Source: Methanolobus sp. (lineage in GTDB: Archaea; Halobacteriota; Methanosarcinia; Methanosarcinales; Methanosarcinaceae). Taken from it: a DNA stretch of 64,000 nt. A program made the position numbers and the translations under genes. Location of the stretch: NCBI RefSeq assembly GCF_016278365.1, contig NZ_JADQBZ010000003.1, positions 124,001 to 188,000 of the forward strand, given 5' to 3'. The notes under the pieces were generated by a model. That model made no database searches. It was not told the origin of the DNA and saw only the letters and a program-made list of their open reading frames with translations. The stretch's first letter is position 1; each line of letters begins with the position of its first letter. Below, in pieces: positions 1,011 through 15,545 of this stretch.

Positions 1011-1061
1011 TTATAAATGTGTAATGGTTACGCACATAATATAAAGGGAGATATAGACAAA

Positions 1062-1418
1062 ATGGCAAAAGTAATGATTGTGGACGACGCCGCATTTATG
1101 CGTATGGTCATCAAGGATATTCTAAAAAAGAATGGTCATGAGGTCGTGGCTGAATGTGTTGACGGACTTGATGCTGTCCAAAAATATCCCCAGTTCAAAC
1201 CGGACCTGGTATTTATGGACATCGTTATGCCAAATATGGAAGGGACTGATGCATTAAAGAAAATAATGCAGATGGATCCCTCTGCAAAAGTAGTCATGTG
1301 CTCATCCATTGGGCAGCAGTCAGTAGTTACTGATGCTCTCAAAAGTGGAGCCCTTGATTTCATCGTGAAGCCATTCGATGCCGCAAAGGTCCTTGAAGTT
1401 ATCGGAAAAGTAATGTAA
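1062..1418 (+). CDS. cheY: Chemotaxis response regulator CheY
   Basis: Single receiver domain of 118 residues. The acidic pocket is D9-D10, the phospho-acceptor is D53 in DLVFMD, the switch serine is S81/S82 in CSSIGQQ, and the conserved lysine is K103 in IVKPF. Phosphorylated by CheA, it would carry the signal to the output, the archaellum motor in archaea that have one. An in-frame ATG exists 45 bases upstream, but the start at MAKVMIVDD matches the family N-terminus and has GGGAG 11 bases before it. It is the first gene of the che operon and abuts cheB with no spacer (TAA then ATG). Confidence 0.95.
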   Translation: MAKVMIVDDAAFMRMVIKDILKKNGHEVVAECVDGLDAVQKYPQFKPDLVFMDIVMPNMEGTDALKKIMQMDPSAKVVMCSSIGQQSVVTDALKSGALDFIVKPFDAAKVLEVIGKVM

Positions 1419-2513
1419 ATGACAATCAATGTCCTTGTAGTCGATGACTCGGCGCTGATGCGTAAAGTTATTTCTGACATCCTCTCAGAAGATCAGGAGA
1501 TCAGAGTGATAGGAACAGCAAGGAACGGCCTCGACGCTGTGGAAAAGGTTGAGAGGCTCAAGCCAGACGTGGTCACTCTTGATGTAGAGATGCCAACACT
1601 TGACGGGCTGCATGCGCTTGGATACATAATGAGCGAATGCCCCACTCCAGTAGTAATGCTCACTGCTCTTGATCCAAAGTCCGCCGAAAGAACACTGAAT
1701 GCTTTTGAATATGGAGCTGTGGACTTTATCCAGAAACCTTCAGGCAATATCAGCCTGAACATCATGGATATAGCTGACGAGATCCGTTTGAAGGTAAAGA
1801 TTGCATCCAGGGTGGATCTCAAAAAGCTGGGTTTCATGGAAGAACATGTGAATTCCAGAGGAATACCTGCAAAAAAACAGTTGGATATACCCGCAAAGAT
1901 TCCTGAGGACCCGAAGAGAAAGCACTTTTCAAACCAGAAGATCCTTGCAATAGCTTCTTCTACAGGAGGACCGCGGGCACTTGAGCAGGTAGTTCCAAAG
2001 CTGCCAGGAGACCTAAAAGTTCCGGTTGTCATCGTACAGCACATGCCTGCCGGTTTTACAGCGTCTCTTGCACAAAGGCTGGATATGCAGTCACAACTTA
2101 CTGTATGTGAGGCTAAGGAAGGAGATGTGCTGGAACCAGGCGTTGTGTACATTGCTCCCGGAAACTACCATATGGAGATAGTACAGAAGAACATAAGCGG
2201 ACGCACATCAGAAGTTGTTTCCCTTAACCAGAATCCGCGTGAGCAGGGTGTCAGGCCATGTGCGAACATTCTTTTCAAGTCTCTGGTTCCGCTCTACGGA
2301 CAAAACATACTGGCCGTAGTGCTCACCGGAATGGGGGCAGATGGAGCGGATGGGGCCGAAGAGATAAAGAAAGCCGGCGGCAAGGTGATAACAGAGGATG
2401 AGAGATCCTGTGTTGTTTATGGTATGCCAAAAGTGGTTGTCCAGCGTGGGCTGTCGGACAGTATAGTGAGTCTTGAAAGAGTCTCAAGCGAGATAGTTCA
2501 TATGTTAAGATAA
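1419..2513 (+). CDS. cheB: Chemotaxis protein-glutamate methylesterase CheB
   Basis: 364 residues, the usual length. The N-terminal receiver domain (about 1-125) has D10 and phospho-acceptor D55 in VVTLDVEMP. The C-terminal methylesterase domain (about 172-364) carries the catalytic triad by motif: S181 in SSTGGP, H208 in QHMPAGF and D308 in TGMGADGA. CheB demethylates or deamidates receptor glutamates for adaptation and is activated by CheA. The start codon follows directly on the cheY stop, which suggests translational coupling. No receptor gene lies in the window, so the substrates are encoded elsewhere. Confidence 0.96.
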   Translation: MTINVLVVDDSALMRKVISDILSEDQEIRVIGTARNGLDAVEKVERLKPDVVTLDVEMPTLDGLHALGYIMSECPTPVVMLTALDPKSAERTLNAFEYGAVDFIQKPSGNISLNIMDIADEIRLKVKIASRVDLKKLGFMEEHVNSRGIPAKKQLDIPAKIPEDPKRKHFSNQKILAIASSTGGPRALEQVVPKLPGDLKVPVVIVQHMPAGFTASLAQRLDMQSQLTVCEAKEGDVLEPGVVYIAPGNYHMEIVQKNISGRTSEVVSLNQNPREQGVRPCANILFKSLVPLYGQNILAVVLTGMGADGADGAEEIKKAGGKVITEDERSCVVYGMPKVVVQRGLSDSIVSLERVSSEIVHMLR

Positions 2514-2574: not shown

Positions 2575-4608
2575 ATGGACATGTCAGAATATAAGGACAT
2601 TTTCAAGGCAGAGTCTGAAGAACACCTGCAACAGTTGAACGAGTCACTGCTCGGACTTGAACAGAATCCCCTGGAGATCGAATACATCAACACGATGTTC
2701 CGCTCTGCGCATACCCTTAAAGGAATGTCAGCAACCATGGGATTCAGCACCATCGCGGAACTTACCCATGAGATGGAAAACCTGATGGACATGGTACGCA
2801 AATGCCAGGTGACTGTCAGCAATTCCCTGATAGACATACTTTTTGAGTGTCTGGATACACTTGAAGCCCTTGTAGAGAGCGTGGACACCGGAGGAGAAGT
2901 CAACATATCCCACCTTCAGGCCACACTTGCACAAGCCATGGAAGGAACCCTCTGTGCTGTTGAAACTACAGTTGATATTACAAACGACTTCGCGGGAATT
3001 AGCCCGATATCTACTGAGGAAAACTTAAAGCCGGCTGGAGCAGAAATGCACATCCATTTCTCGGAGTCGGAAAATTCCTGCATTGAAACTGCACTTCATG
3101 ATGGAGACAGGATACTTGAGTTAAAGGTCATGCTAGACCCGTCATGTGTGCTGAGGTCAGCAAGATCCACACTTGTTCTCATAAACCTGTCAAAGATGGG
3201 AAAGATCATTAAGTGTATGCCTTCCGAAGCCGATCTTGAGGACGAGAAGTTTGACTTTGAGTTCACGGTCGTTTTAGCCACAAAAGAAGACGATGCCAGA
3301 ATTACAGAAGTGATCACAAAAATATCGGAGATAAAATCTATCGATATCTCAACTGTGTGTACCTGTGAAAGCGATGGTGAACCAGAGTCCTCGACAAAAG
3401 AAGATACAACTGAGTCACAGCAATGTAATTCAGCGGTTAAGAGATCGGAATCTGTAAAAAGCATCCAGAGTGTCAGGGTGAATATTGAGCGCCTTGACAA
3501 TCTCATGAATCTCGTGGGCGAGCTGATCATCAATAAGATAAGACTGAACCAGCTTGCTTCCGACATCAATGCTAAAACCCTTGATGAGTCTCTTGCTAAC
3601 CTGGACCGCCTGACCAACGAGATACAGACTGAGGTCATGGAAGCCAGGATGGTGCCTATCGATCAGGTATTCAGCAGGTTCCCACGGATGATAAGGGATC
3701 TTGCAAAATCCGAAGGCAAGCAAGTGGACCTTGTTATCGAAGGAAAGGATATAGAGCTTGACAGGACAGTGCTTGACGAGATAGGTGATCCGCTTGTCCA
3801 CCTTTTACGCAATGCAGTAGACCATGGCATCGAGCCCACAGAAGAACGGACCAGGCTTGGCAAGCCGATAGCGGGCTTTGTCGGTCTTTCAGCTTCCAGA
3901 CAGAGGAACAGTGTCATCATAGAAGTAGAAGATGACGGAAAAGGTATGGAACCGTCTCATCTGAGAGATGTAGCTGTTAAAAAGGGCATAATGAGTCGTG
4001 AAGAAGCGGACAAGCTATCTGACACAGACGCGCTTAACCTAATATTCGTGGCAGGCTTCAGCGGTGCCAAGACCATCACCGATGTATCCGGCAGAGGAGT
4101 CGGCATGGACGCTGTCAAGACAAAGATAGAGGCGCTCGGAGGTACCGTCAAGGTAAGTTCGGTACCTGGACAGGGAAGCTCCATCAAACTGCAACTTCCC
4201 CTGACTGTCGCCATTATCCAGTCCCTGATGGTGACCATTACAGGTGAAACCTACGCAGTACCCCTTGCAAATGTGGTGAGGGATGTGGGCATAAAAGCCA
4301 GTGACATCAAGACCATCGAAGGAAAAGAGGTCGTTCTGCTGCGAGGAGAGGTCTTGCCACTCCTGAGACTACATAATGTGCTTGACTGTCCCGGAGAAGC
4401 AGACAAGAAAGAGAACCTTATAGTTGTAGTCGTAGAGCGCATGGGCAGCAACATCGGATTTGTTGTTGATCAACTTCTAGGACAGCAGGAAGTAATCATC
4501 AAGACTCTTGATAACAAACTTTTGAAAAACACAAGAGGATTTGCAGGTGCAACCATCCTGGGAGATGGAAGCGTTGCGCTGATTCTCGATATTGCAACTT
4601 TGATATGA
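2575..4608 (+). CDS. cheA: Chemotaxis histidine kinase CheA
   Basis: 677 residues with the full CheA domain order. The HPt domain (about 1-105) has phospho-histidine H46 in FRSAHTLKGM. A P2-like CheY/CheB-docking domain spans about 165-265. The P3 dimerisation helix region (about 295-365) begins VRVNIERLDNLMNLVGE. The P4 ATPase domain has the N-box HLLRNAVDHGIE, G1 DDGKGM and G2 GRGVGMDAV. The P5 CheW-like domain forms the last 140 residues. It autophosphorylates in response to receptors and phosphorylates CheY and CheB. The start is preceded by GAGGGGTG; M3 is an alternative. No CheW gene is present nearby, so the P5 partner must be encoded elsewhere. Confidence 0.96.
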   Translation: MDMSEYKDIFKAESEEHLQQLNESLLGLEQNPLEIEYINTMFRSAHTLKGMSATMGFSTIAELTHEMENLMDMVRKCQVTVSNSLIDILFECLDTLEALVESVDTGGEVNISHLQATLAQAMEGTLCAVETTVDITNDFAGISPISTEENLKPAGAEMHIHFSESENSCIETALHDGDRILELKVMLDPSCVLRSARSTLVLINLSKMGKIIKCMPSEADLEDEKFDFEFTVVLATKEDDARITEVITKISEIKSIDISTVCTCESDGEPESSTKEDTTESQQCNSAVKRSESVKSIQSVRVNIERLDNLMNLVGELIINKIRLNQLASDINAKTLDESLANLDRLTNEIQTEVMEARMVPIDQVFSRFPRMIRDLAKSEGKQVDLVIEGKDIELDRTVLDEIGDPLVHLLRNAVDHGIEPTEERTRLGKPIAGFVGLSASRQRNSVIIEVEDDGKGMEPSHLRDVAVKKGIMSREEADKLSDTDALNLIFVAGFSGAKTITDVSGRGVGMDAVKTKIEALGGTVKVSSVPGQGSSIKLQLPLTVAIIQSLMVTITGETYAVPLANVVRDVGIKASDIKTIEGKEVVLLRGEVLPLLRLHNVLDCPGEADKKENLIVVVVERMGSNIGFVVDQLLGQQEVIIKTLDNKLLKNTRGFAGATILGDGSVALILDIATLI

Positions 4609-4625
4609 TATGATGAGGGTATAAA

Positions 4626-5240
4626 ATGACTGAAATGGACGAAATGACAAAAGGAGCATTCCAGGAAGCAGGGAATATAGGAATGGGTCATCTGGCAACT
4701 TCTCTCTCAAAAATGGTAAACAGAGAGGTAAAGATAGACATCCCTGTTGTAGAAATGCTATCACTGGATGAGATAATCTCCCGGGCTTCCAATGGAAAGC
4801 AGAAGAGTGTTGTAGGAATACATCTCAATATCTCAGGAGATGTGACCGGAGGCACTCTGATCCTTTTACCAAAATTCTCAGCACTTTCATTCTCTGACCT
4901 TCTTTTAAAGAAGTCAATAGGGACTACCACAAAGATAGAAGAGATGGAAATTCGCAAGCTTCGTGAAATGGGAGTGCGTCTCTGTAGCTCATACATGCGT
5001 GTGGTCAATGAGTTTCTCGGGATCAACCTTGCGATCGGAGATCCCCGGATGGATGTGAATATGGAAGGTGTGACTGAGTTCATCAAAAAGGAGATAGGGC
5101 AACTTGCTGACGAATTCATAGTTGTCAAAGGAGAATGCTATATACCATCCACAAACTCAAGGAATGAGTTCAACATGCTGTTCGAACCTGAAGCAAGTGA
5201 CGTTATAATGGCTGCAATCATGAAAAAGATGATGGGATGA
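4626..5240 (+). CDS. cheC: CheC-family CheY-P phosphatase, paralogue 1
   Basis: 204 residues. CheC proteins dephosphorylate CheY-P through two pseudo-symmetric E-x2-N motifs and bind CheD. Here the first motif is intact (E14 and N17 in EAGNIGMGHLATSL). In the second, the asparagine position is valine (E114-M-G-V117), so one of the two active sites appears lost. This is the first of four CheC paralogues in the operon. It lies 17 bases after cheA with a GAGGGT ribosome binding site and stops one base before the next start. Confidence 0.88.
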   Translation: MTEMDEMTKGAFQEAGNIGMGHLATSLSKMVNREVKIDIPVVEMLSLDEIISRASNGKQKSVVGIHLNISGDVTGGTLILLPKFSALSFSDLLLKKSIGTTTKIEEMEIRKLREMGVRLCSSYMRVVNEFLGINLAIGDPRMDVNMEGVTEFIKKEIGQLADEFIVVKGECYIPSTNSRNEFNMLFEPEASDVIMAAIMKKMMG

Positions 5241-5241
5241 A

Positions 5242-7359
5242 ATGAGCAACTCCCACTTTGCCCTGGATATAGGTACCAGGACTGTTGTGGGGCTCATTGT
5301 TGAAGGAGAGCCTCTGGAAGTAAAAGCCGCATGCATATGCGAACATGAAGAACGCAGTATGCATGACGGACAGATCCACGATGTGGACAAGGTTGCAGAG
5401 GTCGTAAGAAAAGTAAAAACCGAACTCGAAAAAGAGATCGGTTATAAGCTCACACGGGCCTGCGTGGCAGTTGCCGGCAGGGCCCTGAGAACATCTAAAG
5501 CAAAAGTGTCAATCGACCTGCCCTACAGGGAGATAAGTGATAATGATGTGTCCGAGATCGAGTTTGAAGCCCTGGCAAGAGCCAGCGCTGAAATCGATTC
5601 TGGCGAACGGTTTAACTGTGTAGGTTATTCAGTTATCGGGTATGAACTTGACGGACAGCGGATCTCAAATATAAAAGGACACAGTGGAAGCTCAATTTCA
5701 ATTGAGGTTCTTGCAACCTTTCTGCCTGAAGCCGTTGTTAACAGTATGTTTGCCGTGCTTGCCAGATGTGATATGGAAGTTTCAAGCATAACTCTGGAAC
5801 CCATAGCCGCACTGAGTGTTGCCATCCCTCTGGATATGCGCAAACTGAACATAGCACTTGTGGATATAGGGGCGGGCACATCAGATATCGCTGTAACCAA
5901 TGACGGAACGGTCATAGGCTATGGCATGGTTGCAGAAGCAGGTGACGAGATCACGGATTTCATTTGTGATCATTACCTTGTCGATTTTAAAAAGGGCGAG
6001 GAGATCAAGCAAAGGATTTCCGCATGTGACATAATAGAGATGCAGGATTTTTTTGGTAATGTCACCAGCATAAAGACCACAGAAATTATCTCTGTCGTAG
6101 GCAGTGAAATAGACAAACTCGCCCTGCATATAGCGGACGAGATACTCGCAATAAATGGAAAGCCTCCACGTGCAGTCGTCCTCGTCGGAGGAGGGTCACA
6201 GACAGTTATGCTCAAAGAGCGGCTTTCAGTGCACCTCGGAGTTCCGGTACAGAGAATAGGAGCACGCCTTCCTGCAATGATAGAGACATTCAGGGATAAT
6301 ACAAGCAAGGTTACAGGCGCCGATATGATAACGCCTCTTGGTATAGCCCTGACAGCTATCCGAAAGACGGGTATCGAATTTACAGACCTGACAGTCAATA
6401 ACACACCAGTCCATCTAATGGCACTGAATGGCCTCTCAGTAATGGACGCCCTTGTAGCCACACACATAAAAAGACTCTACCCGCGTCCCGGACTTGCCCT
6501 TACTCTCAAAGTGAACTCTCAGTTCATCACAATTGAAGGAGATGCCGGCAAGCATGCCACTGTCCTGCTGGATGGAAAAAAGGCCAACCTTGGGGATCCG
6601 GTCCGAAAGGGTTCCAGAATAGAGTTTGAACCACCTTCGGATGGCAGGGGTGCAAGCATAACTGTCAGAGAGCTCATATCTAAAATGGAAATGGATCTGT
6701 TTACGGATGTTACTGTCAATGATGAAGCGACAAGACAAATGATTTCTGTTCTGGTAAATGGGAAAATAGTCCCGCCTGAGGAGAACGTACCCGACAGGGC
6801 AGAAGTCATTATCGAACCCGCTACACTGGAAGAAGTGCTTCATAGAACAGGTAATGATGTCACAGATAAGATACAGGTCACTGTAAATAGAAGGCCAAAG
6901 CTTCTTGACAGGACTCAATTATTAATCCGGCTGAACGGGACTGCAGTAAAGTCTGCCGATCTTTCCAATATAATCATCAAGAGCGGGGATAAGGTACAGA
7001 TATGCAAAAATGAAGCTATCTGGACAGTTGCTGACATATTTGATATGCCCGCGAGCAGGAAAAGTACCAGCGTGATTCTTAATGGTGAAAAAGTGACATT
7101 CAACGGTCACGATAATTCTGTAATTGTTAATGGAAGGAAAGCAGAGCTTTCTGAAAGAGTGTTCGACGGCGATGATATAACAATTAAAGAAGGGCCTGAT
7201 GAAAACCCAATCCTTTCAGATCTTTTTGAGTTTATGGACATTAACAGAGAGGAGCTTGTCGGAAAGAACATCAAGCTGTTTGTGAATGGCACCCCCGCTC
7301 GCTTTACAACACCATTGAGAGAGGGAAACAAAGTTAGCATAGAATTCCAGGAGGTTTAA
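5242..7359 (+). CDS. FtsA/PilM-like actin-fold ATPase with C-terminal beta-strand repeats
   Basis: 705 residues. The N-terminal 375 show the actin/HSP70 ATPase fold: phosphate-1 loop ALDIGTRTVVGLIVE (7-21), phosphate-2 loop LVDIGAGTSDIAV (206-218) and adenosine loop VVLVGGGSQ (312-320). A segment at about 85-165 fits the FtsA/PilM SHS2-like insert. The C-terminal half is a run of five or six units of the form VxVNGxxxxL...GDxVxI (for example near 502-525, 546-588, 609-648 and 677-703), probably small beta-rich domains. It resembles the long FtsA-domain proteins of Clostridia more than cell-division FtsA. It sits between cheC and cheR with 1-base spacings, so it is co-expressed with the chemotaxis proteins. 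Its role is unknown; scaffolding of an array or pole-localised complex is a guess. Confidence 0.75.
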   Translation: MSNSHFALDIGTRTVVGLIVEGEPLEVKAACICEHEERSMHDGQIHDVDKVAEVVRKVKTELEKEIGYKLTRACVAVAGRALRTSKAKVSIDLPYREISDNDVSEIEFEALARASAEIDSGERFNCVGYSVIGYELDGQRISNIKGHSGSSISIEVLATFLPEAVVNSMFAVLARCDMEVSSITLEPIAALSVAIPLDMRKLNIALVDIGAGTSDIAVTNDGTVIGYGMVAEAGDEITDFICDHYLVDFKKGEEIKQRISACDIIEMQDFFGNVTSIKTTEIISVVGSEIDKLALHIADEILAINGKPPRAVVLVGGGSQTVMLKERLSVHLGVPVQRIGARLPAMIETFRDNTSKVTGADMITPLGIALTAIRKTGIEFTDLTVNNTPVHLMALNGLSVMDALVATHIKRLYPRPGLALTLKVNSQFITIEGDAGKHATVLLDGKKANLGDPVRKGSRIEFEPPSDGRGASITVRELISKMEMDLFTDVTVNDEATRQMISVLVNGKIVPPEENVPDRAEVIIEPATLEEVLHRTGNDVTDKIQVTVNRRPKLLDRTQLLIRLNGTAVKSADLSNIIIKSGDKVQICKNEAIWTVADIFDMPASRKSTSVILNGEKVTFNGHDNSVIVNGRKAELSERVFDGDDITIKEGPDENPILSDLFEFMDINREELVGKNIKLFVNGTPARFTTPLREGNKVSIEFQEV

Positions 7360-7360
7360 A

Positions 7361-8197
7361 ATGCTTAAGACTGCTGAGAAACATGTTACAAAAGAGGATA
7401 CCGATTTTGTAATGCTCAAGAATTTGATCAAAGACAAACTCGGATTTAATTGTGAGTACTACAAGGATTCCCATTTTAAAAGAAGAATAGACGTGAGGCT
7501 GAGAGCTTCTGGCTCGAAGAACTATGGAGATTACGTCAGGCTCCTGAAAGAGAATGCTGATGAACGTACTATCCTCATGGATACGTTAACTGTTAATGTC
7601 ACGAATTTCTTCCGTAACACGGAAGTATATGACATCGTCGAAAAAGAAGTGCTCCCTGCTGTGATCAAGTCTAAAAGTACAAGCCCTCTCAAATCCATAA
7701 AAATATGGAGTGCCGGCTGCTCTATAGGAGTGGAAGCTTATTCCATTGCAATGCTTATGGACCACATTCTGGGAAATACGATCAGACGGTACAATATATC
7801 GATAACGGGCACTGACATAGATAAGGCGAGCCTTCAGCAGGCTCAGCAGGGTGTCTACAGCGATGTTGAAATGAAAGATGTGCGTCCTGCGTTCCTTGAA
7901 AAATATTTTGTAAAGCAGGGAAACCAGTACCATATCATAGACGAACTGAAAAAGATGACACATTTCAAGCCCCATGACATGATATCAGGCCCTAAGATCA
8001 AGGGATTTGACATCATATTCTGCAGGAATGTCACTATTTATTTTGAGAAAGAACTGCAGGAAAAGCTGTACATGGACTTTTACGATGGACTGAATGAGAA
8101 CGGATTTTTTGTCATGGGAAAAACGGAGACACTCCTTGGCCCTTCCAAAGACCGGTTCAAGCCTTTCAACGCAAAGGAAAGGATATACTGTAAATAG
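7361..8197 (+). CDS. cheR: Chemotaxis protein methyltransferase CheR
   Basis: 278 residues. The N-terminal helical domain (about 15-85) contains the CheR pattern with an arginine-rich helix (HFKRRIDVRLRA) and TVNVTNFFRN. The SAM-binding domain has WSAGCSIGVEAYSIA (116-130) and the late motif FDIIFCRNVTIYF. It methylates receptor glutamates using SAM, opposing CheB. A strong GGAGGT ribosome binding site lies inside the end of the preceding ATPase gene, so the two are closely linked in translation. Confidence 0.94.
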   Translation: MLKTAEKHVTKEDTDFVMLKNLIKDKLGFNCEYYKDSHFKRRIDVRLRASGSKNYGDYVRLLKENADERTILMDTLTVNVTNFFRNTEVYDIVEKEVLPAVIKSKSTSPLKSIKIWSAGCSIGVEAYSIAMLMDHILGNTIRRYNISITGTDIDKASLQQAQQGVYSDVEMKDVRPAFLEKYFVKQGNQYHIIDELKKMTHFKPHDMISGPKIKGFDIIFCRNVTIYFEKELQEKLYMDFYDGLNENGFFVMGKTETLLGPSKDRFKPFNAKERIYCK

Positions 8198-8248
8198 CCG
8201 GGTCCGATCAGGGCCATGTAAATTAAAAACGGATACTGAGGAAAACAT

Positions 8249-8863
8249 ATGATAGGCAGGATGGATGAACTCACTGAACTGCAGGCCAGTGCATTGAAAG
8301 AAATAGTTAATATCGGCGTAGGCAATGCTGTGACTTCCCTCTCAAAAATGATAGGCAAGCAGATCAGCATAGAAGTTCCGGAACTAAAGATAGAGAAGAT
8401 AGAGAAAGTACCTGAGAAAGCAGGCGGCGCTGATACTGTGGTTTCAGGAGTAATCATGCATCTCGATGGGGACATTAACGGCTACATTATGATGCTGCTA
8501 TCCAGAGAAACTGCCGAGACAATATGCACAACCATCACCGGAGAAGAAACTCCCGATATCCTGAGTGCTATGAACCAGTCCCTGATAGAGGAAGTGGGCC
8601 ACATCCTGGCAGGCTCCTACGTGAGCTCCCTCTCCGAATTCCTTGGGCTTGATTTCAGGATCTCACCTCCAATGCAGACCTATGACATGCTCGGCGCCAT
8701 CATGGACCAGATGCTTATTGAGATGAGTAAGAACGTGGAGTATACATTTCTCTTTGATACATTCTTCACAATGGAAGGAAACAGGATGGAAGGTATCCTG
8801 CTCACATTATTCGATCCTGAATCAATGGAAAGGATACTTACACGAATCAATGATATGGTATGA
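8249..8863 (+). CDS. cheC: CheC-family CheY-P phosphatase, paralogue 2
   Basis: 204 residues. The first phosphatase motif is intact (E18 and N21 in KEIVNIGVGNAVTSL). In the second, the catalytic asparagine is replaced by histidine (E115-V-G-H118). The rest follows the CheC two-fold repeat. It may have half activity, or act mainly by binding CheY-P or CheD. A GAGGA ribosome binding site precedes the start. It lies 51 bases after cheR and 16 bases before the next cheC copy. Confidence 0.88.
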   Translation: MIGRMDELTELQASALKEIVNIGVGNAVTSLSKMIGKQISIEVPELKIEKIEKVPEKAGGADTVVSGVIMHLDGDINGYIMMLLSRETAETICTTITGEETPDILSAMNQSLIEEVGHILAGSYVSSLSEFLGLDFRISPPMQTYDMLGAIMDQMLIEMSKNVEYTFLFDTFFTMEGNRMEGILLTLFDPESMERILTRINDMV

Positions 8864-8879
8864 TTAAAGGAGGTAGAAT

Positions 8880-9491
8880 ATGAAAATAATACTTGACCAG
8901 TTTTATTATGACGCGCTTAATGAGATTGGGAACATTGGCATGGGAAACGCTACCACAGCTCTTTCTCAACTTATCGGGAAAACGATAAAGGTCAGCGCCT
9001 CTGAGCTCACATCTCTTGATCCAGACTGTATTACCGACCATGAAGAGCATAACAAGATAGGAGCCATAGTCAAGATTATAGGTGACATGAACGGTGGTTT
9101 CATACTCGTGCTGGATGAAAGGCATTCTGAAGTGCTATCAAACATGATGCTTGCGCGTACAGAATACGAGAATGACCCCTATATGAAGAATTCAGTTGTC
9201 ATTGAAGTGGCAAATATCCTGGCAGGCACCTACTGTACTGCTCTTTCAAAGTTCCTGGACCTGTCAGTAACACCTTCACTACCCGTTTTGGCAGAAGGAA
9301 GCCCTGGTGACCTGTTGAAGAAATGTGGAAAATATCTGAACGGAAAAGTAGATCACATAATTGGGCTGACCGCCCTGTTCGAGATTGAAGCTGAGGACGA
9401 GTACCATAGCCTCAGCGGTGACATGTACATGCTGCTGGATGCAGCCTCCATGAAGACTATCCTTGACAGGATCAACAAAATGCGTATCTGA
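8880..9491 (+). CDS. cheC: CheC phosphatase, paralogue 3 (both active-site motifs intact)
   Basis: 203 residues. This is the only copy of the four with both motifs complete: E15/N18 in NEIGNIGMGNATTAL and E109/N112 in IEVANILAGTY. It is therefore the best candidate for the catalytic CheY-P phosphatase. It lies 5 bases before cheD, matching the known CheC-CheD partnership in which CheD binding stimulates CheC. A strong AAAGGAGGT ribosome binding site precedes the start. Confidence 0.93.
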   Translation: MKIILDQFYYDALNEIGNIGMGNATTALSQLIGKTIKVSASELTSLDPDCITDHEEHNKIGAIVKIIGDMNGGFILVLDERHSEVLSNMMLARTEYENDPYMKNSVVIEVANILAGTYCTALSKFLDLSVTPSLPVLAEGSPGDLLKKCGKYLNGKVDHIIGLTALFEIEAEDEYHSLSGDMYMLLDAASMKTILDRINKMRI

Positions 9492-9496
9492 ACATC

Positions 9497-9970
9497 ATGA
9501 TAATCGTAGGAATGGCAGACAGCGCGGTAGCAAAAAAACCTGCTAAGATAACGACCCTCGGGCTGGGGTCGTGCGTAGGTGTTGCCATGTACGATAAAAA
9601 CAGTTGTGTCGGCGGAATGGTGCATGTAATGCTTCCAAGTATAGAAAATGCAAGAGCCAAGGATAACCTTGCAAAATTTGCTGATACAGGCATACCTTAT
9701 CTTGTAGAATGTATGGTAAAAGAAGGTGCTGCAAAGAGTACTATCAAAGCTAAGATCGCAGGAGGAGCCAGAATGTTCTCCTTCAGCTCAAATGCCCAGC
9801 TCAATATAGGAGAGAGGAATGTTACTGCAACCAAGGAGATCCTGAAAAAACTTCGAATCCCGCTGGTTGCAGAAGATACGGGCGAGAACTATGGACGTAC
9901 AATAATCCTGGATACGGATAATGGCCAGCTTATTGTTAAAAGTGCTCTAAAAGGGCAAAAAATATATTAA
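9497..9970 (+). CDS. cheD: Chemoreceptor glutamine deamidase CheD
   Basis: 157 residues. The catalytic triad of the family is visible: T20 and C26 in TTLGLGSCVGVAMYD, and H43 in GGMVHVMLP. The conserved IAGGARMF segment is also present. CheD deamidates receptor glutamines and binds CheC. The position directly after the CheC copy with two intact motifs supports a CheC/CheD complex. About 50 AT-rich bases follow before the next gene, which could hold an internal promoter. Confidence 0.95.
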   Translation: MIIVGMADSAVAKKPAKITTLGLGSCVGVAMYDKNSCVGGMVHVMLPSIENARAKDNLAKFADTGIPYLVECMVKEGAAKSTIKAKIAGGARMFSFSSNAQLNIGERNVTATKEILKKLRIPLVAEDTGENYGRTIILDTDNGQLIVKSALKGQKIY

Positions 9971-10023
9971 TTATTAGATATAAATAACATCATGATCTTA
10001 TGAGGAATTAAGGTGGCACCAAA

Positions 10024-11256
10024 ATGTTAACCCCGGATATTACATTAGTATATATTCTATTCATCTCTATCTCACTTTCAGCAGGTATAGCCGCGATATA
10101 CTTCTGGGTCAGGATATATTATGAAACAAAGAAAGGGTCCATCGCATGGCTGTTGCTTGCACTGACAGCCATATTCCTCATAACAACATCCGTATTTCCT
10201 TCTGTGGCAGTCAGTATACCAGACCCCACGGTCTCTGAGACAATTCTTATCTATCTGGGTTTCTGGAGTGCGGTATATACCAGTATATTTGCAGCTGCAG
10301 GTTTTATGATGTTCACTGCTTTCAGAACTATACCCAGAGAGAAGTTAGGGGATTTCCTTCTTGAAGGCATGGTGTTCCAGAAGAACCAGATGGTAAAATC
10401 AGCATGTTCAAAGAAATGTTCTCTTTGCGATAAATATGAAAATGAAGAATGCCCGGGATGCGTTGCTAAGAACAAGCATGCAGAAGAAAAATGCCTGATA
10501 TATGAGTGTGTTGTTGATAAGGGCATGACCTCATGCATGGACTGCGATGTAGTGGATACATGCATCAAGTATGAAAGAGAGATCGATAAATGTCCCATGA
10601 GTGACAGGGCAGGGATTTTTGCAGAATTTGAACAAACTGCCAACCTATTCAAAAGATCTACTTTGCTTGAATACGTTCCTCATATGAGATATGAGGATGC
10701 AGTTATTGAGATCTGCCTGAGGTTGTACGGAGAGACTGTGAATACGGTACTTGTATCTACCCAGCCACGGACAAACCTTTACAGGGAAAAGCTGGCCGAC
10801 CTCATGGATGTAGGTGCTATGAAGTTCATTGAGATCTCATCTACAGTAAAAACAATTTCAGAGGACAATGGAATAATTAAATTGCCAGCTACCGAGCTTG
10901 ACAAATTCTTTGACCTCACAAGCAAGTTACCCAAAGATTGCACTATCATATTTGAACCTCTTACACATCTTATTGTTAGTGAGGGGGAAACGGAGACCTA
11001 CGAGTTCGTATCCAAAATGGTAGAAAAGCTCAGTGCCAGTGAGATAACTCTTATAGGCCTTCTCAATAAACCAGCGCATGATGAAAAAATTGTTTCCAGA
11101 TTCGAAGGACTTTTCCTCAATCTTGCAGATATCACCCATTCCAGAATACGTATCGCAAAAGGCGGCAGGGAGGAGTATATTCGTTTCTATGTAGGAGAGA
11201 AGTTCTACATGGAGCAAAACGAAGGAATGGAAATGCAGGCCAGCGGACTGCAATAG
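10024..11256 (+). CDS. Membrane protein with Cys-rich region and DUF835 domain
   Basis: 410 residues. Three hydrophobic helices lie at about 6-28, 38-62 and 75-103. A cysteine-rich stretch follows at about 125-195, with many CxxC and CxxxC pairs (CSKKCSLC, CPGC, CMDC) that could bind zinc or an Fe-S cluster. The C-terminal part, about 210-400, matches DUF835, an archaeal domain related to the KaiC/RecA-like fold and common in methanogens. The family function is unknown. It lies between cheD and the fourth cheC with AAGGTGG before the start, so it may be a membrane sensor or anchor for this signalling system; that is inference. Confidence 0.7.
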   Translation: MLTPDITLVYILFISISLSAGIAAIYFWVRIYYETKKGSIAWLLLALTAIFLITTSVFPSVAVSIPDPTVSETILIYLGFWSAVYTSIFAAAGFMMFTAFRTIPREKLGDFLLEGMVFQKNQMVKSACSKKCSLCDKYENEECPGCVAKNKHAEEKCLIYECVVDKGMTSCMDCDVVDTCIKYEREIDKCPMSDRAGIFAEFEQTANLFKRSTLLEYVPHMRYEDAVIEICLRLYGETVNTVLVSTQPRTNLYREKLADLMDVGAMKFIEISSTVKTISEDNGIIKLPATELDKFFDLTSKLPKDCTIIFEPLTHLIVSEGETETYEFVSKMVEKLSASEITLIGLLNKPAHDEKIVSRFEGLFLNLADITHSRIRIAKGGREEYIRFYVGEKFYMEQNEGMEMQASGLQ

Positions 11257-11282
11257 AAGCCATAACGGAGGTAGAGAGGATC

Positions 11283-11906
11283 ATGGATATATTGAACAGT
11301 TTCGAGACTGATGCGCTCAAAGAGATCGGAAGCATAGGGATGGGGAATGCAACAACATCCCTTTCAAAACTTGTGAACCGCAACGTAAGACTTAATCTAT
11401 CTGACGTAGGAATGCTGCAGCAGGAAAAAGTCTCTATGCTGATTCCCGAATCTATCACAATGGCAGGGGTCATGTTAAGAATAGAAGGTGAACTCAGGGG
11501 CGTTGCCCTGCTCCTGTTTGAATTTAATAATGCTGTGCTTCTGAGCAGTCTTATGCTTGGAGATTCTGAACAGGTCAATGATCCTACAATGCACGAATCC
11601 GCACTTTCCGAGCTTGGAAATATCCTTGCAGGTTCCTATATAGGTGCACTTACCTCTTTCCTTGATATGGAAGTAAGCCATAGAGCCCCTGAAATTGCCA
11701 TAGGGCCAATACTGAATGTTCTCAAAAAGGCTTCTTCACTTATCGAAAACGAACCTGAAGAGTTGCTGAATATTGAAACGATGTTTATGGTCCATGATGC
11801 TGGCGATGGAAAAGGGCTCAACACTATCTACGGGGACATGTTCCTCCTGCTTGACCCGGCTTCTCTGGATAGATTAAGGGAGTCAATCGGAAAAATGCTC
11901 TCCTGA
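11283..11906 (+). CDS. cheC: CheC-family protein, paralogue 4
   Basis: 207 residues. The motif pattern is opposite to paralogues 1 and 2: the first motif has serine for asparagine (E14-I-G-S17), while the second is intact (E110/N113 in SELGNILAGSY). A single working site is therefore expected. It follows the DUF835 gene by 26 bases with GGAGGTAGAGAGG before the start, and is the last recognisable che gene of the operon. Confidence 0.88.
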   Translation: MDILNSFETDALKEIGSIGMGNATTSLSKLVNRNVRLNLSDVGMLQQEKVSMLIPESITMAGVMLRIEGELRGVALLLFEFNNAVLLSSLMLGDSEQVNDPTMHESALSELGNILAGSYIGALTSFLDMEVSHRAPEIAIGPILNVLKKASSLIENEPEELLNIETMFMVHDAGDGKGLNTIYGDMFLLLDPASLDRLRESIGKMLS

Positions 11907-11951
11907 TCAGATAACCAGTAAAAACTAAAACAATCATAAAACCGATCCTGC

Positions 11952-12503
11952 ATGAAAAACCAATGGATACAACACCTTGAAAAGGCGTTACCCGAAAAAA
12001 GGGAGCATGGGACATCTTTCGTAAAGATGTTACATGTCCTGGCCAGAGATGGCGGGAAGGGAAAAGAAAACCATTTACACAGGAAGAACAGTTCACAGCG
12101 TAGCAGGGGTAAGTTCCCGGAGAAAAAAGAACATTACACGACTGTATGTACTGAAGATCACCCGAAGAGTGTCACTGTTACAAGCACTGTCCCGGCACAT
12201 GGAAGCACTTCATCTGTTGATACGCCCCTAAGAGAAGATGATGCACAGGTGGAACTGTGCAGATGGATTGCGGAAAGCCAACTGGGTCCTGAAAATGGTA
12301 TCGCTGCTACGGGAGAGGATTTTGTCCAACTCCTGAGTTCAGTGAACGGACAGCTGTTTCTCAGTTATAATGTAACAGGAGAGGATGTATTCGAAATAGT
12401 TGTGGGCTCTGTTGAAGAAGCAGAGAAGGTTATATCTGATGATAATATGACGACTGCCATGCTCTATCCGGGGAACCCGGAATACCAGTGGTCAAAAAAA
12501 TAA
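11952..12503 (+). CDS. Uncharacterised protein at the end of the che operon
   Basis: 183 residues, not recognised. The N-terminal 100 are low complexity, rich in Lys, His, Ser and Thr, and probably disordered. The C-terminal 85, starting near DDAQVELCRWIAESQ, look like a compact alpha/beta domain with the segments FVQLLSSVNGQLFLSYN and VFEIVVGSVEEAEKVI. No membrane segment or signal peptide is seen. The start is uncertain because no clear ribosome binding site precedes it. It lies 45 bases after the fourth cheC and is probably co-transcribed. Confidence 0.5.
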   Translation: MKNQWIQHLEKALPEKREHGTSFVKMLHVLARDGGKGKENHLHRKNSSQRSRGKFPEKKEHYTTVCTEDHPKSVTVTSTVPAHGSTSSVDTPLREDDAQVELCRWIAESQLGPENGIAATGEDFVQLLSSVNGQLFLSYNVTGEDVFEIVVGSVEEAEKVISDDNMTTAMLYPGNPEYQWSKK

Positions 12504-12555
12504 TACTATTTTAATATAATCCACATAATTCAATGGTAAAGAATAAAAGCAATCA

Positions 12556-12585
12556 GTGCAATTAATATATAAATATAGTATATTT
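12556..12585 (+). promoter_or_regulatory. TATA-type promoter before the tandem CP-motif genes
   Basis: An AT-only run with overlapping TATA boxes (AATATATAAATATAG) lies about 50 bases before the start of the next gene. An AAGGAG ribosome binding site follows near 12610. Confidence 0.5.
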
Positions 12586-12624
12586 AGATAGAATGGTGCG
12601 AGACTAATAAGGAGAACCATAGCC

Positions 12625-13251
12625 ATGATGGACATTGCAATATATTCACTTGTTGATGATATGGTCAGCAAAGCAGGAACGGAAGGTGTTGTAGAATACT
12701 GGCTCCGTGTAGGTGAAAGTTATGCCGAAAGGATGGGCAAAGAAGCTTATGTAGGCTGGCCTGCCTTTAACGTGGCAATGAAAGAGGGAAGGACATCCCT
12801 TACCGTAGAAGGAGAAGTTAACGTACTTACCGATCTTGCCATTATTGACAAGGACGGGGATGTTATAGGATATGTTTATGCACTGAAGACCTGCCCTATG
12901 GCACCTACAATGAGAAGATACATCTCCAGGATAGGGCCAATTCCCGATTCAGACACCGACGTTGCCGATAGTTACAATAACCGCATAAGGGATTCAGCGG
13001 TTTCCAATTACTGTATCACTCACCAGAGATTCAGGGAGATAGCGGCCAATAATGTCACAGTCGCTAAACAGGCCCTTGAATGCCTGCAGCTTGCAAACAA
13101 AGGCATGACAGGAGATGTAAAAATGGTACCTGAGAATCTTGCGAGGATAAATGTGGACGAGCGTCACATCAAAAGTATCCTCCGCAGTGCATCCTGCGTG
13201 TTCGCTATCATAGTAAAGGGAAAGAGCGCAGGTGAGGAAGTAGTCGATTAA
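12625..13251 (+). CDS. Uncharacterised CP-motif protein, tandem copy 1
   Basis: 208 residues, soluble, family not recognised. It is a clear paralogue of the next gene. Both share a cysteine-proline motif followed by a helix (here KTCPMAPTMRRYISRIG; next KAIREYIKRIG), a conserved DxYNxxI segment, a CxxHQxxR/YRE motif (NYCITHQRFRE) and a TGDV/I segment near the C-terminus. A further gene at 35.9-36.4 kb appears to be a distant relative. The pattern of CP, His and a late GD segment slightly recalls V4R or ATC-hydrolase-like folds, but I cannot support that. A start two codons in, at the second ATG, is equally possible. Confidence 0.6.
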   Translation: MMDIAIYSLVDDMVSKAGTEGVVEYWLRVGESYAERMGKEAYVGWPAFNVAMKEGRTSLTVEGEVNVLTDLAIIDKDGDVIGYVYALKTCPMAPTMRRYISRIGPIPDSDTDVADSYNNRIRDSAVSNYCITHQRFREIAANNVTVAKQALECLQLANKGMTGDVKMVPENLARINVDERHIKSILRSASCVFAIIVKGKSAGEEVVD

Positions 13252-13261
13252 GGGTGATAAT

Positions 13262-13879
13262 ATGGCAGAGAACATTGAATCCAATCCGTTTGTTGATGTT
13301 TCCGTCTTCCTGTTCTTTGAGGATATCTCAGATAAACAGGGAGTGGAAGGTTTTACCAATTATATGGTCGGCCAGGCTGAATCACTCGCCAAGTCCGTAC
13401 CTGAGGAAGAATACGAGACATGGGACGATTTTGCAAAAGCTGTTGCCAGTGGGGAATCTGTATTCTCATCCTTTGAGAGTATAGAGCAGATAAGCAAATA
13501 CGGGTTCGTCACCAACATATGCCCGTTCTCCAAGGCGATAAGGGAGTATATCAAACGCATAGGTAACTTCAATCCTGTGCATGTTGAGGCCACAGACCAC
13601 TACAATCACACGATACAGCCATCAGCAGCCCACAGTGCATGCATGATGCATCAGACCTACAGGAAAGAAGTGGCAAAAAGAATCAAGATAGATGGCAAAC
13701 CCCTGCAATATGCCCAGATAGGCGCCAAAGCGTATACAGGTGATATTGCACTTCCTCCTGAATCCTGGAAGAAGGTCTTACTTGAAAAGGCAGGCATCTC
13801 CGAGACCCAGGGGTTCATGGAGATGAGAGAAAACAGTTGCCTTTACCTCTTGTACGTGGAAGAGCGAAGTTCCCGTTAA
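13262..13879 (+). CDS. Uncharacterised CP-motif protein, tandem copy 2
   Basis: 205 residues, paralogous to the preceding gene and 10 bases after it with a GGGTGAT ribosome binding site. Conserved points are NICPFSKAIREYIKRIG, DHYNHTIQPSAAHSACMMHQTYRKE and IGAKAYTGDIALPPE, followed by a short strand LYLLYV. No membrane segment is seen. The retained Cys and His residues hint at a metal, haem or cofactor site, but this is inference. A weak hairpin and T-runs follow the stop. Confidence 0.6.
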   Translation: MAENIESNPFVDVSVFLFFEDISDKQGVEGFTNYMVGQAESLAKSVPEEEYETWDDFAKAVASGESVFSSFESIEQISKYGFVTNICPFSKAIREYIKRIGNFNPVHVEATDHYNHTIQPSAAHSACMMHQTYRKEVAKRIKIDGKPLQYAQIGAKAYTGDIALPPESWKKVLLEKAGISETQGFMEMRENSCLYLLYVEERSSR

Positions 13880-13893
13880 CTTTTTTAAGGGCT

Positions 13894-13922
13894 GGCTTTA
13901 AGTAAAAAAAATACTTAAGGCT
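13894..13922 (+). terminator. Possible hairpin after the CP-motif gene pair
   Basis: GGCTTTAAGTA and TACTTAAGGCT can pair over 11 positions (two of them G-U) around a loop of seven A residues. A run of T lies just before it, and another about 25 bases after it. Termination in archaea depends mainly on T-runs, so the hairpin may be incidental. Confidence 0.35.
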
Positions 13923-13947
13923 ATTCCAAACAACAAATCCGCTTCTA

Positions 13948-14112
13948 ATTTTTTTTATTGCACTGGTATTCATCCTTATACTTACTGCACGATTAAGGAT
14001 ATCTCCGTTCCTTATCCTGATTGCCGGCTCGCTGCTGGAAATCTGCTTACAGGCGAGGCTAAAGGGACAATGGATGCTATTTCCACAGGCATGGCAGGGT
14101 CTTTGGCCAGAC
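13948..14112 (+). pseudogene. Frameshifted, truncated fragment of a GntP-family permease
   Basis: The stretch aligns with the first 60 codons of the intact permease gene that starts at 14244. In one frame it reads FIALVFILILTARLR, then PFL.LIAGSLL. After a single-base deletion near 14036 the match continues in another frame with LLTGEAKGTMDAISTGM. No start codon precedes it, and the similarity ends near 14112. It is best explained as the remnant of a second, tandem permease gene. Confidence 0.8.
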
Positions 14113-14243
14113 AGCCATGATATACTTCCTGCTCTACTGATGCTATACCAGGGGAAGGTTTGCGTTAGTGCAAAAATAGCAACTTTTTTGGATAGCCATC
14201 TGCTTTAAATAATATAGCGTAAGTTAGAATAGATGGGGTATCA

Positions 14244-15545
14244 ATGGGGCCAATAACCATTTTCATAGTAGCTTTGATTTTTATTTTAATCCTAACCGCA
14301 CGTTTGAGGGTGCACCCTTTCCTTAGCCTGATTGCCGGTTCTATGCTGGTGGGTCTGCTTGCAGGCGAGGCTGAAGGAACAATGGATGCAATCACGGCAG
14401 GCATGAGCAGTATCTTTGCAGAATTTGCAATCGTCGTTACTGCCGGAAGCATAATCGGAGTGATACTGCAGAGAAGCGGTGCAACCTCGATAATAGCAGA
14501 TGACATCATCAAAATATTCAAAAAACCAATACTGGCGCTCTTCCTGCTGGGATTCATGTTTGCAGTTCCCATGATGTGCCTTATACTGGCTTTTATCATT
14601 TTCCTCCCTGTTGCCAAAGACCTGAACGAGAAGCTCAACCTGAAAAAAGGTGTGACAGAAGGTGCTTTGGCACTGGGGACCATGGTCTCCTTCGGCCTGG
14701 TATATCCTTCACCCGGCATTTACGCTTTTGTAAGAGATGTAGGTCCCACAACTGAAATAAGTGCACTAAGGGTACTGATCGCCGGGGCCCTGATTGCTGT
14801 GCTTGTGTCACTGGTAGGGTATCTTTATATCATGAAAGTATTCAAAATGAACATAAAGGAAGATTATTTCCGATACAAAACTCCTGCAAAGGATCCTGCT
14901 GTGGTGAGTCTTCTTCCCACCAGGGTAGCATGCTATGCACCTATCATCATTCCGGTTGTACTTATCCTTATGCGCATCACCACACATGCAGATGTGTTCT
15001 ATTTTATAGGGAACCCAGGCATGGCACTGATGTCCGGGGCTGTGGTTGCAATGGTATTACCAACCAGGAAGTTCGCTGCCGCTGATGTGCGGGCATGGGT
15101 CGAAAAAGGTATTCGCAGGAGTGGGCTGGTAATGCTGGATATATGCGGGGGCGGAGCTCTCGGAGCAACTCTCGTACTGGCAGGTGTTGGCGAAGCACTT
15201 GGCAATATGTTGATTACTTCAAGCGTACCTGCCCTGTTCATACCATTTCTTATTGGAGCAGCCATCCAGACAGTTCAGGGTTCAAGAATGGTAACATTGT
15301 TCGTTGCTTCAGCATTAGTGATACCTATTATGCCACAACTTGGATTGCCTGCCGAGATAGTGCTTTTCTCCATGGCTTCCGGAACATTCCTTATCTCTCA
15401 CTTTAATGACCCCTTCTTCTGGATATTGGGGGACCTTGCTGATATGGAAACACCTGAAATATTGAAGACGTATACTATGGGAGGAATAGTTATGGGAATC
15501 GCCAGCATGGCAATAACCAGTATAATCTACTTCTTATTTTATTGA
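14244..15545 (+). CDS. GntP/gluconate-family permease
   Basis: 433 residues, mostly hydrophobic, with about 11-12 predicted membrane segments. The N-terminus (GPITIFIVALIFILILTARLR, then HPFLSLIAGSMLVGLLAG) and the central ITAGMSSIFAEFAIVVTAGSI region follow the GntP (gluconate:H+ symporter) family. Late motifs such as SHFNDPFFW are characteristic. The substrate in a methanogen is unknown; a small hydroxy or keto acid is plausible. The start has GATGGGG 6-10 bases upstream. A frameshifted partial copy lies immediately upstream. Convergent with the PRC-hemerythrin gene. Confidence 0.85.
   Translation: MGPITIFIVALIFILILTARLRVHPFLSLIAGSMLVGLLAGEAEGTMDAITAGMSSIFAEFAIVVTAGSIIGVILQRSGATSIIADDIIKIFKKPILALFLLGFMFAVPMMCLILAFIIFLPVAKDLNEKLNLKKGVTEGALALGTMVSFGLVYPSPGIYAFVRDVGPTTEISALRVLIAGALIAVLVSLVGYLYIMKVFKMNIKEDYFRYKTPAKDPAVVSLLPTRVACYAPIIIPVVLILMRITTHADVFYFIGNPGMALMSGAVVAMVLPTRKFAAADVRAWVEKGIRRSGLVMLDICGGGALGATLVLAGVGEALGNMLITSSVPALFIPFLIGAAIQTVQGSRMVTLFVASALVIPIMPQLGLPAEIVLFSMASGTFLISHFNDPFFWILGDLADMETPEILKTYTMGGIVMGIASMAITSIIYFLFY

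Follow-up and report, generated by a model that had tools for sequence, protein, structure and literature searches.

An FtsA/PilM-like ATPase with a predicted chain of beta-grasp domains encoded in the chemotaxis operon of Methanolobus

The che operon of Methanolobus contains, between cheC1 and cheR, a gene for an FtsA/PilM-like ATPase with a C-terminal beta-grasp chain. In the window, by which we mean the whole stretch of 64,000 nucleotides that was analysed, the gene lies at 5242..7359 on the + strand and is intact, with an ATG start and 705 codons. A bacterial origin is supported by the single clade that the archaeal copies form beside bacterial relatives and by the absence of the gene from almost all other members of the order. 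As best explanation we tentatively propose an ATP-switched scaffold for Che proteins that was co-opted into chemotaxis, a reading to which we give a little less than an even chance.

The ATPase gene and its operon

The operon order is cheY-cheB-cheA-cheC1-[ATPase gene]-cheR-cheC2-cheC3-cheD-(410-aa protein)-cheC4, with all genes on the + strand. It begins with cheY (1017..1418, PF00072), cheB (1419..2513, assigned from sequence and with conserved order) and cheA (2575..4608), whose product has Hpt, P2, H-kinase_dim, HATPase_c and CheW domains. cheC1 (4626..5240, PF04509), which sister genera possess too, is coupled with the ATPase gene, a single nt lying between the cheC1 stop codon and the ATG that follows, and cheR (7361..8197; PF01739, E 6e-53) begins 1 nt past the ATPase stop codon. 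Both 1-nt spacings claimed in the first-pass annotation are thus confirmed, as is its placement of the gene in a che operon, since cheC1 and cheR flank it at 24/24 Methanolobus loci. Further downstream are cheC2 (8249..8863, PF04509), cheC3 (8880..9491, PF04509), cheD (9497..9970, PF03975), a gene for a 410-aa protein of unknown function (10024..11256) and cheC4 (11283..11906, PF04509). The 410-aa protein has apparent N-terminal membrane segments and is a conserved member of the operon in Methanolobus and in the genera g23 and g123; with sequence profiles it matches no family over its cut-off. Four CheC paralogues are encoded in this one operon (4626-5240, 8249-8863, 8880-9491 and 11283-11906), and judged by eye their losses at the two ExxN active-site motifs seem complementary, with, for example, the second site reading EMGV in cheC1 and the first EIGS in cheC4. 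A sepF gene claimed for the window was not recovered by a crude motif scan of it.

The ATPase gene is under purifying selection. Its dN/dS is 0.12-0.16 as a whole and 0.08-0.11 for the ATPase domain, compared with 0.06-0.09 for cheA and ~0.02 for cheC1.

ATPase domain and C-terminal chain

Residues 1-376 (5242..6369) are assigned to an FtsA-fold ATPase domain by structural matches of an AlphaFold2 model. The full-length model has a mean pLDDT of 79.6 and a pTM of 0.56, with poor confidence around aa 211-233, and matches FtsA (7q6i) with Z 31.6 over aa 2-375, PilM (2ych) with Z 27.0 and EutJ (3h1q) with Z 22.6. Sequence profiles agree with this assignment. Over the first 370 residues the NCBIfam models ftsA and pilM match with E 7e-28 (97.8 bits, under the equivalog cut-off of 175.85) and E 4e-14, respectively; Pfam PilM_2 scores 30.2 bits, over its gathering score of 27; FtsA from the PDB is found through the family profile with E 1.7e-24; and EutJ matches with E 2e-15. 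The three nucleotide-binding loops of actin/FtsA type described in the first-pass annotation are all present and near-invariant in an alignment of 17 archaeal and bacterial homologues. They comprise the phosphate-1 loop LDIGTRTVV (aa 8-16, 5263..5289), with D and GTR of its core DIGTR (aa 9-13) invariant, the phosphate-2 loop VDIGAGTSDI (aa 207-216, 5860..5889; core DIGAGTSD, aa 208-215), with D-x-GAGTSDI invariant, and the adenosine loop LVGGGS (aa 314-319, 6181..6198; core GGGS, aa 316-319), with VGGG invariant. The motif LEPIAA (aa 185-190, 5794..5811), in which T-L-E-P is invariant in archaeal and bacterial copies, presumably resembles the catalytic-Glu motif of MreB and EutJ.

The C-terminal 329 residues hold five repeats. 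When the five units were compared pairwise as profiles, 10/10 pairs reached 95-98% probability, while those control pairs that gave any score stayed at or below 67% and aligned just 6-25 columns, the best two being overlapping control windows. The tandem repeats noted in the first reading of the sequence are therefore real, although its generic description as beta-strand repeats gives way to the predicted structure, in which they are beta-grasp (ubiquitin-like) domains of the ThiS/SAMP/TGS/MoaD kind. Pfam ThiS matches three stretches over its cut-off (E 9e-11). Modelled alone, the C-terminal part has a pLDDT of 82.4 and a pTM of 0.51, and its residues 4-91 match SAMP1, 42-152 ubiquitin-like proteins, 113-218 ThiS and 231-329 proteins of MoaD type. 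Most of the beta-grasp Z values are modest (6-10); the same fold recurs along the chain, and the Pfam ThiS match is independent of the model.

Domain 1 (aa 377-467, 6370..6642) is predicted from a match to SAMP1 (4hro; Z 8.4, 63 residues, 1.9 Å), domain 2 (~aa 418-528, 6493..6825) from ubiquitin-like matches over ~60 residues at ~2 Å and domain 3 (~aa 489-595, 6706..7026) from ThiS (1zud; Z 9.9, 65/65 residues, 2.5 Å). Domain 4 (~aa 543-649, 6868..7188) has no structural match of its own in the comparison of the C-terminal model and is placed by the repeat pattern, the secondary structure and the U3-U4 profile comparison (97.9%). Domain 5 (~aa 607-705, 7060..7356) is supported by the MoaD-type matches and by Pfam ThiS at aa 657-700, and holds the best-conserved C-terminal segment, PILSDLFEFMDI...GN.V.IEF. 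Each match takes up only ~60-65 residues, yet the matched stretches of the chain overlap, which suggests that the domains are interleaved, the first hairpin of each being inserted in the preceding domain; domain 1, for instance, appears to be split by the hairpin belonging to domain 2. The resulting order would be hairpin 1, helix 1, [hairpin 2, strands 1], helix 2, [hairpin 3, strands 2], continuing in this pattern up to helix 5, strands 5, which gives five complete domains. Our choice of interleaved over circularly permuted domains is based on the model and on this counting of complete domains. The fold is common to ThiS, SAMP and MoaD, from which the archaeal protein differs by its five, apparently interleaved, copies. 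It ends in VSIEFQEV, without Gly-Gly, and is therefore not expected to act as a sulfur carrier or conjugatable modifier.

Distribution and origin

Of the 27 Methanolobus genomes, 24 carry an intact copy of the gene, among them the named isolates M. vulcani, M. profundi and M. halotolerans, so contamination or misassembly can be rejected. One further genus in the order carries it (g123, genome G439) in the same cheC1-cheR slot and with 52% identity. Across the archaeal loci only a few nt separate the gene from cheC1, with short gaps or an overlap towards cheR. Broad archaeal inheritance is rejected within the phylum as sampled, since 2 of the 27 genera in the order have the gene, and in a sample of 295 genomes from 107 genera of the phylum it was found in no genus but Methanolobus. 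In genera g23, g5 and g6 the operon is the same but the slot is empty, only ~40-110 bp lying between cheC1 and cheR. Thus the ATPase is not a core chemotaxis component that occurs wherever the operon does: it is absent from the operons of these three genera and from that of the Methanolobus genome G020.

Three Methanolobus genomes deviate. G020 has kept the che operon and is missing the ATPase gene. In G017 a 216-aa open frame between cheC1 and cheR (L100, G017:C155, 6768-7415) represents an in-frame internal deletion that joins aa 1-103 to 596-705; residues 104-595, and with them most of the ATP site, are gone. As G017 is a metagenome-assembled genome, this deletion may be an assembly error. 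G012 has neither the ATPase gene nor a detectable cheA and is the sole Methanolobus genome without the latter. In a tree of six operon-region proteins G017 and G020 nest within Methanolobus, which indicates secondary losses, and retention of the operon after the gene was lost or gutted marks the ATPase as accessory. A rule linking the ATPase to cheC3 was rejected: neither gene is intact in G017 and G020, where cheC3 went undetected, but G439 has the ATPase gene and likewise no detected cheC3.

The archaeal ATPase belongs to a family of long FtsA/PilM-like proteins that 79 of 103 Thermotogota genomes encode and that also occurs in Bacillota, with tblastn finding relatives in Anoxybacillus, Acetoanaerobium and gut contigs. 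These proteins, for example WP_066327715.1 from Anoxybacillus amylolyticus (annotated PilM), have the same length and domain order as the archaeal protein and ~30-37% full-length identity to it; to the family member L039 the archaeal copies are 36-39% identical over all columns. Archaeal and bacterial copies share a signature past the phosphate-1 loop, EHxxRxMxDGQIHD, in which E-H, R, M, G and H-D are invariant in the alignment of 17 rows. What emerges is a widespread bacterial family, apparently undescribed so far, with a predicted interleaved beta-grasp chain.

Unlike the archaeal gene, none of the bacterial ones examined has the tested che genes in its vicinity, and their function is undescribed as far as we found. 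Relatives of che-operon genes occurred near 0/37 bacterial loci, 30 of which have only ~1.5 kb of flanking sequence. At the larger loci the neighbors are housekeeping genes that differ per lineage: mutS2/acpS in a Thermotogaceae MAG, aroA-ccpA and ytxJ in Anoxybacillus, and polA-coaE with a yycJ-like gene in a gut contig. The first-pass annotation had tied the protein functionally to chemotaxis, a link that would weaken if homologues occurred mostly outside che operons. The Methanolobus copies, all 24 inside the operon, speak for the link and the bacterial ones weaken it, as do the two Methanolobus genomes that keep the operon with the gene lost or gutted.

In a tree the archaeal copies form a single clade (100/100 support) with G439 basal, and a single ancient acquisition from bacteria accounts for this most simply. 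The tree singles out no nearest bacterial group among the Thermotogota and Bacillota sampled. The suggestion of transfer made in the first-pass annotation is accordingly supported. It named Clostridia as the commonest holders; the relatives sampled here are mainly Thermotogota, the best-sampled group, with a few Bacillota. In the operon tree, which carries long-branch warnings, g23 and g6 fall between G439 and Methanolobus, so that one gain followed by losses and transfer between archaea are both possible. Viral spread was rejected: two scans of viral contigs gave no relative, and the matches in 'phage' records are unverified faecal contigs, at least one of them with the bacterial housekeeping genes polA and coaE.

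Possible functions

Fixed position, coupling and selection together point to a role connected with chemotaxis. Most simply, an ancestor of Methanolobus and g123 acquired the bacterial gene once and took it into a che operon that was already there, with cheC1 and cheR as neighbors a few nt away. In the scaffold reading that we favor, the ATPase head would shift state or oligomerize with ATP while Che proteins bind to the beta-grasp arm, the leading candidate being CheC1, whose gene is coupled to that of the ATPase; such docking could organize or anchor the array or tune adaptation. The parallel absence of cheA and the ATPase gene in G012 supports the scaffold. Swimming is plausible for the source organism given the 10 archaellin-family matches in its genome. 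The literature searched, which mostly excluded subscription journals, contained no description of the gene.

A more specific and unlikely version has the FtsA-type ATPase, with its rigid interleaved ubiquitin-like arm, polymerize or oligomerize with ATP and thereby bring about the placement or assembly of the chemosensory array in these archaea. Array positioning would be no oddity and is plausible by analogy, as MinD-type ATPases position motility and chemotaxis machinery in haloarchaea and ParC/ParP act in Vibrio (PMC11588486, PMC6509185, PMC5706961); in those systems an ATPase or a scaffold determines where chemosensory arrays or motility machinery are located. If array placement were true, the protein would be the actin-type equivalent of MinD- and ParC-based positioning. 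To our knowledge the proteins of those systems are unrelated to the ATPase described here and none is an actin-fold ATPase. Should the functional link hold at all, an actin-superfamily ATPase would have been recruited into chemotaxis, and a gene of bacterial cytoskeletal type would have become part of an archaeal signalling operon, with naturally occurring presence, absence and deletion variants to compare.

The main rival to the scaffold is that the protein has kept a bacterial housekeeping role of unknown nature, in envelope, cell shape or stress, and merely uses the che promoter. The wide occurrence of bacterial relatives beside unrelated housekeeping genes and the loss from G020 with che retained fit this account, which we nevertheless find doubtful, as position and coupling are unchanged in Methanolobus and a second genus and the gene is missing together with cheA in G012. 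Archaea, as far as we know, also lack the bacterial envelope targets. The archaellum is a motor related to type IV pili, and PilM binds PilN; the ATPase could by comparison bind a motor component and link chemotaxis signalling to the archaellum. PilM is the second-best fold family and Pfam PilM_2 matches over its cut-off, archaellins are present, and the genome itself has no CheF over the Pfam cut-off. Yet g5 and g6 have archaellins and the operon with neither the ATPase gene nor a detected CheF, so the ATPase is no needed CheF substitute, and the archaeal protein, with its additional C-terminal chain, has no pilMNOP context: pilN/O-type neighbors are absent, the neighbors being che genes, and the operon contains no gene for a PilN-type partner. 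A PilM-like link is hence quite improbable.

The EutJ matches in sequence and structure and the conserved LEPIAA motif would fit an ATPase of chaperone or reactivase type, like EutJ, diol-dehydratase reactivase or Hsp70, with a Che enzyme as its client, an idea we hold very improbable given the clearly stronger FtsA matches over nearly the full 376 residues. Least credible of all is a cell-division FtsA that anchors FtsZ. The protein shares the fold with bacterial FtsA over aa 1-376, but it stays below the equivalog cut-off of NCBIfam ftsA, with 97.8 bits against 175.9, is linked to che genes and lacks a division context, and close relatives that divide are without the gene. Moreover, bacterial FtsA ends in a C-terminal amphipathic helix, whereas here the final beta-strand of a beta-grasp domain (697-702) ends the protein and the sequence has no terminal helix.

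Replacement of CheF by the ATPase, considered because no CheF of the genome passed the Pfam cut-off, was weakened by the sister genera that lack the ATPase gene and have no detected CheF and by the existence of a divergent CheF-like protein. This 195-aa protein, encoded near archaellin genes (L142:4391-4978, G000:C7), is perhaps a divergent CheF, with a weak match to CheF-arch (E 0.002) and one to GRAM.

A second actin-superfamily protein of 364 aa (MreB_Mbl, E 2e-17) is encoded elsewhere in the genome (L085, G000:C6:120000-139500, 7914-15074), followed by a gene for a 607-aa coiled-coil-like protein. The pair lies directly downstream of genes for a poly-HAMP MCP, CheW and a short CheR-like protein. 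In seven other regions checked the actin-like gene adjoins the coiled-coil gene and pyrF, and the MCP-cheW-cheR part adjoins it only in some regions. The 364-aa protein is present in 26 of the 27 Methanolobus genomes, including G012, which is without cheA.
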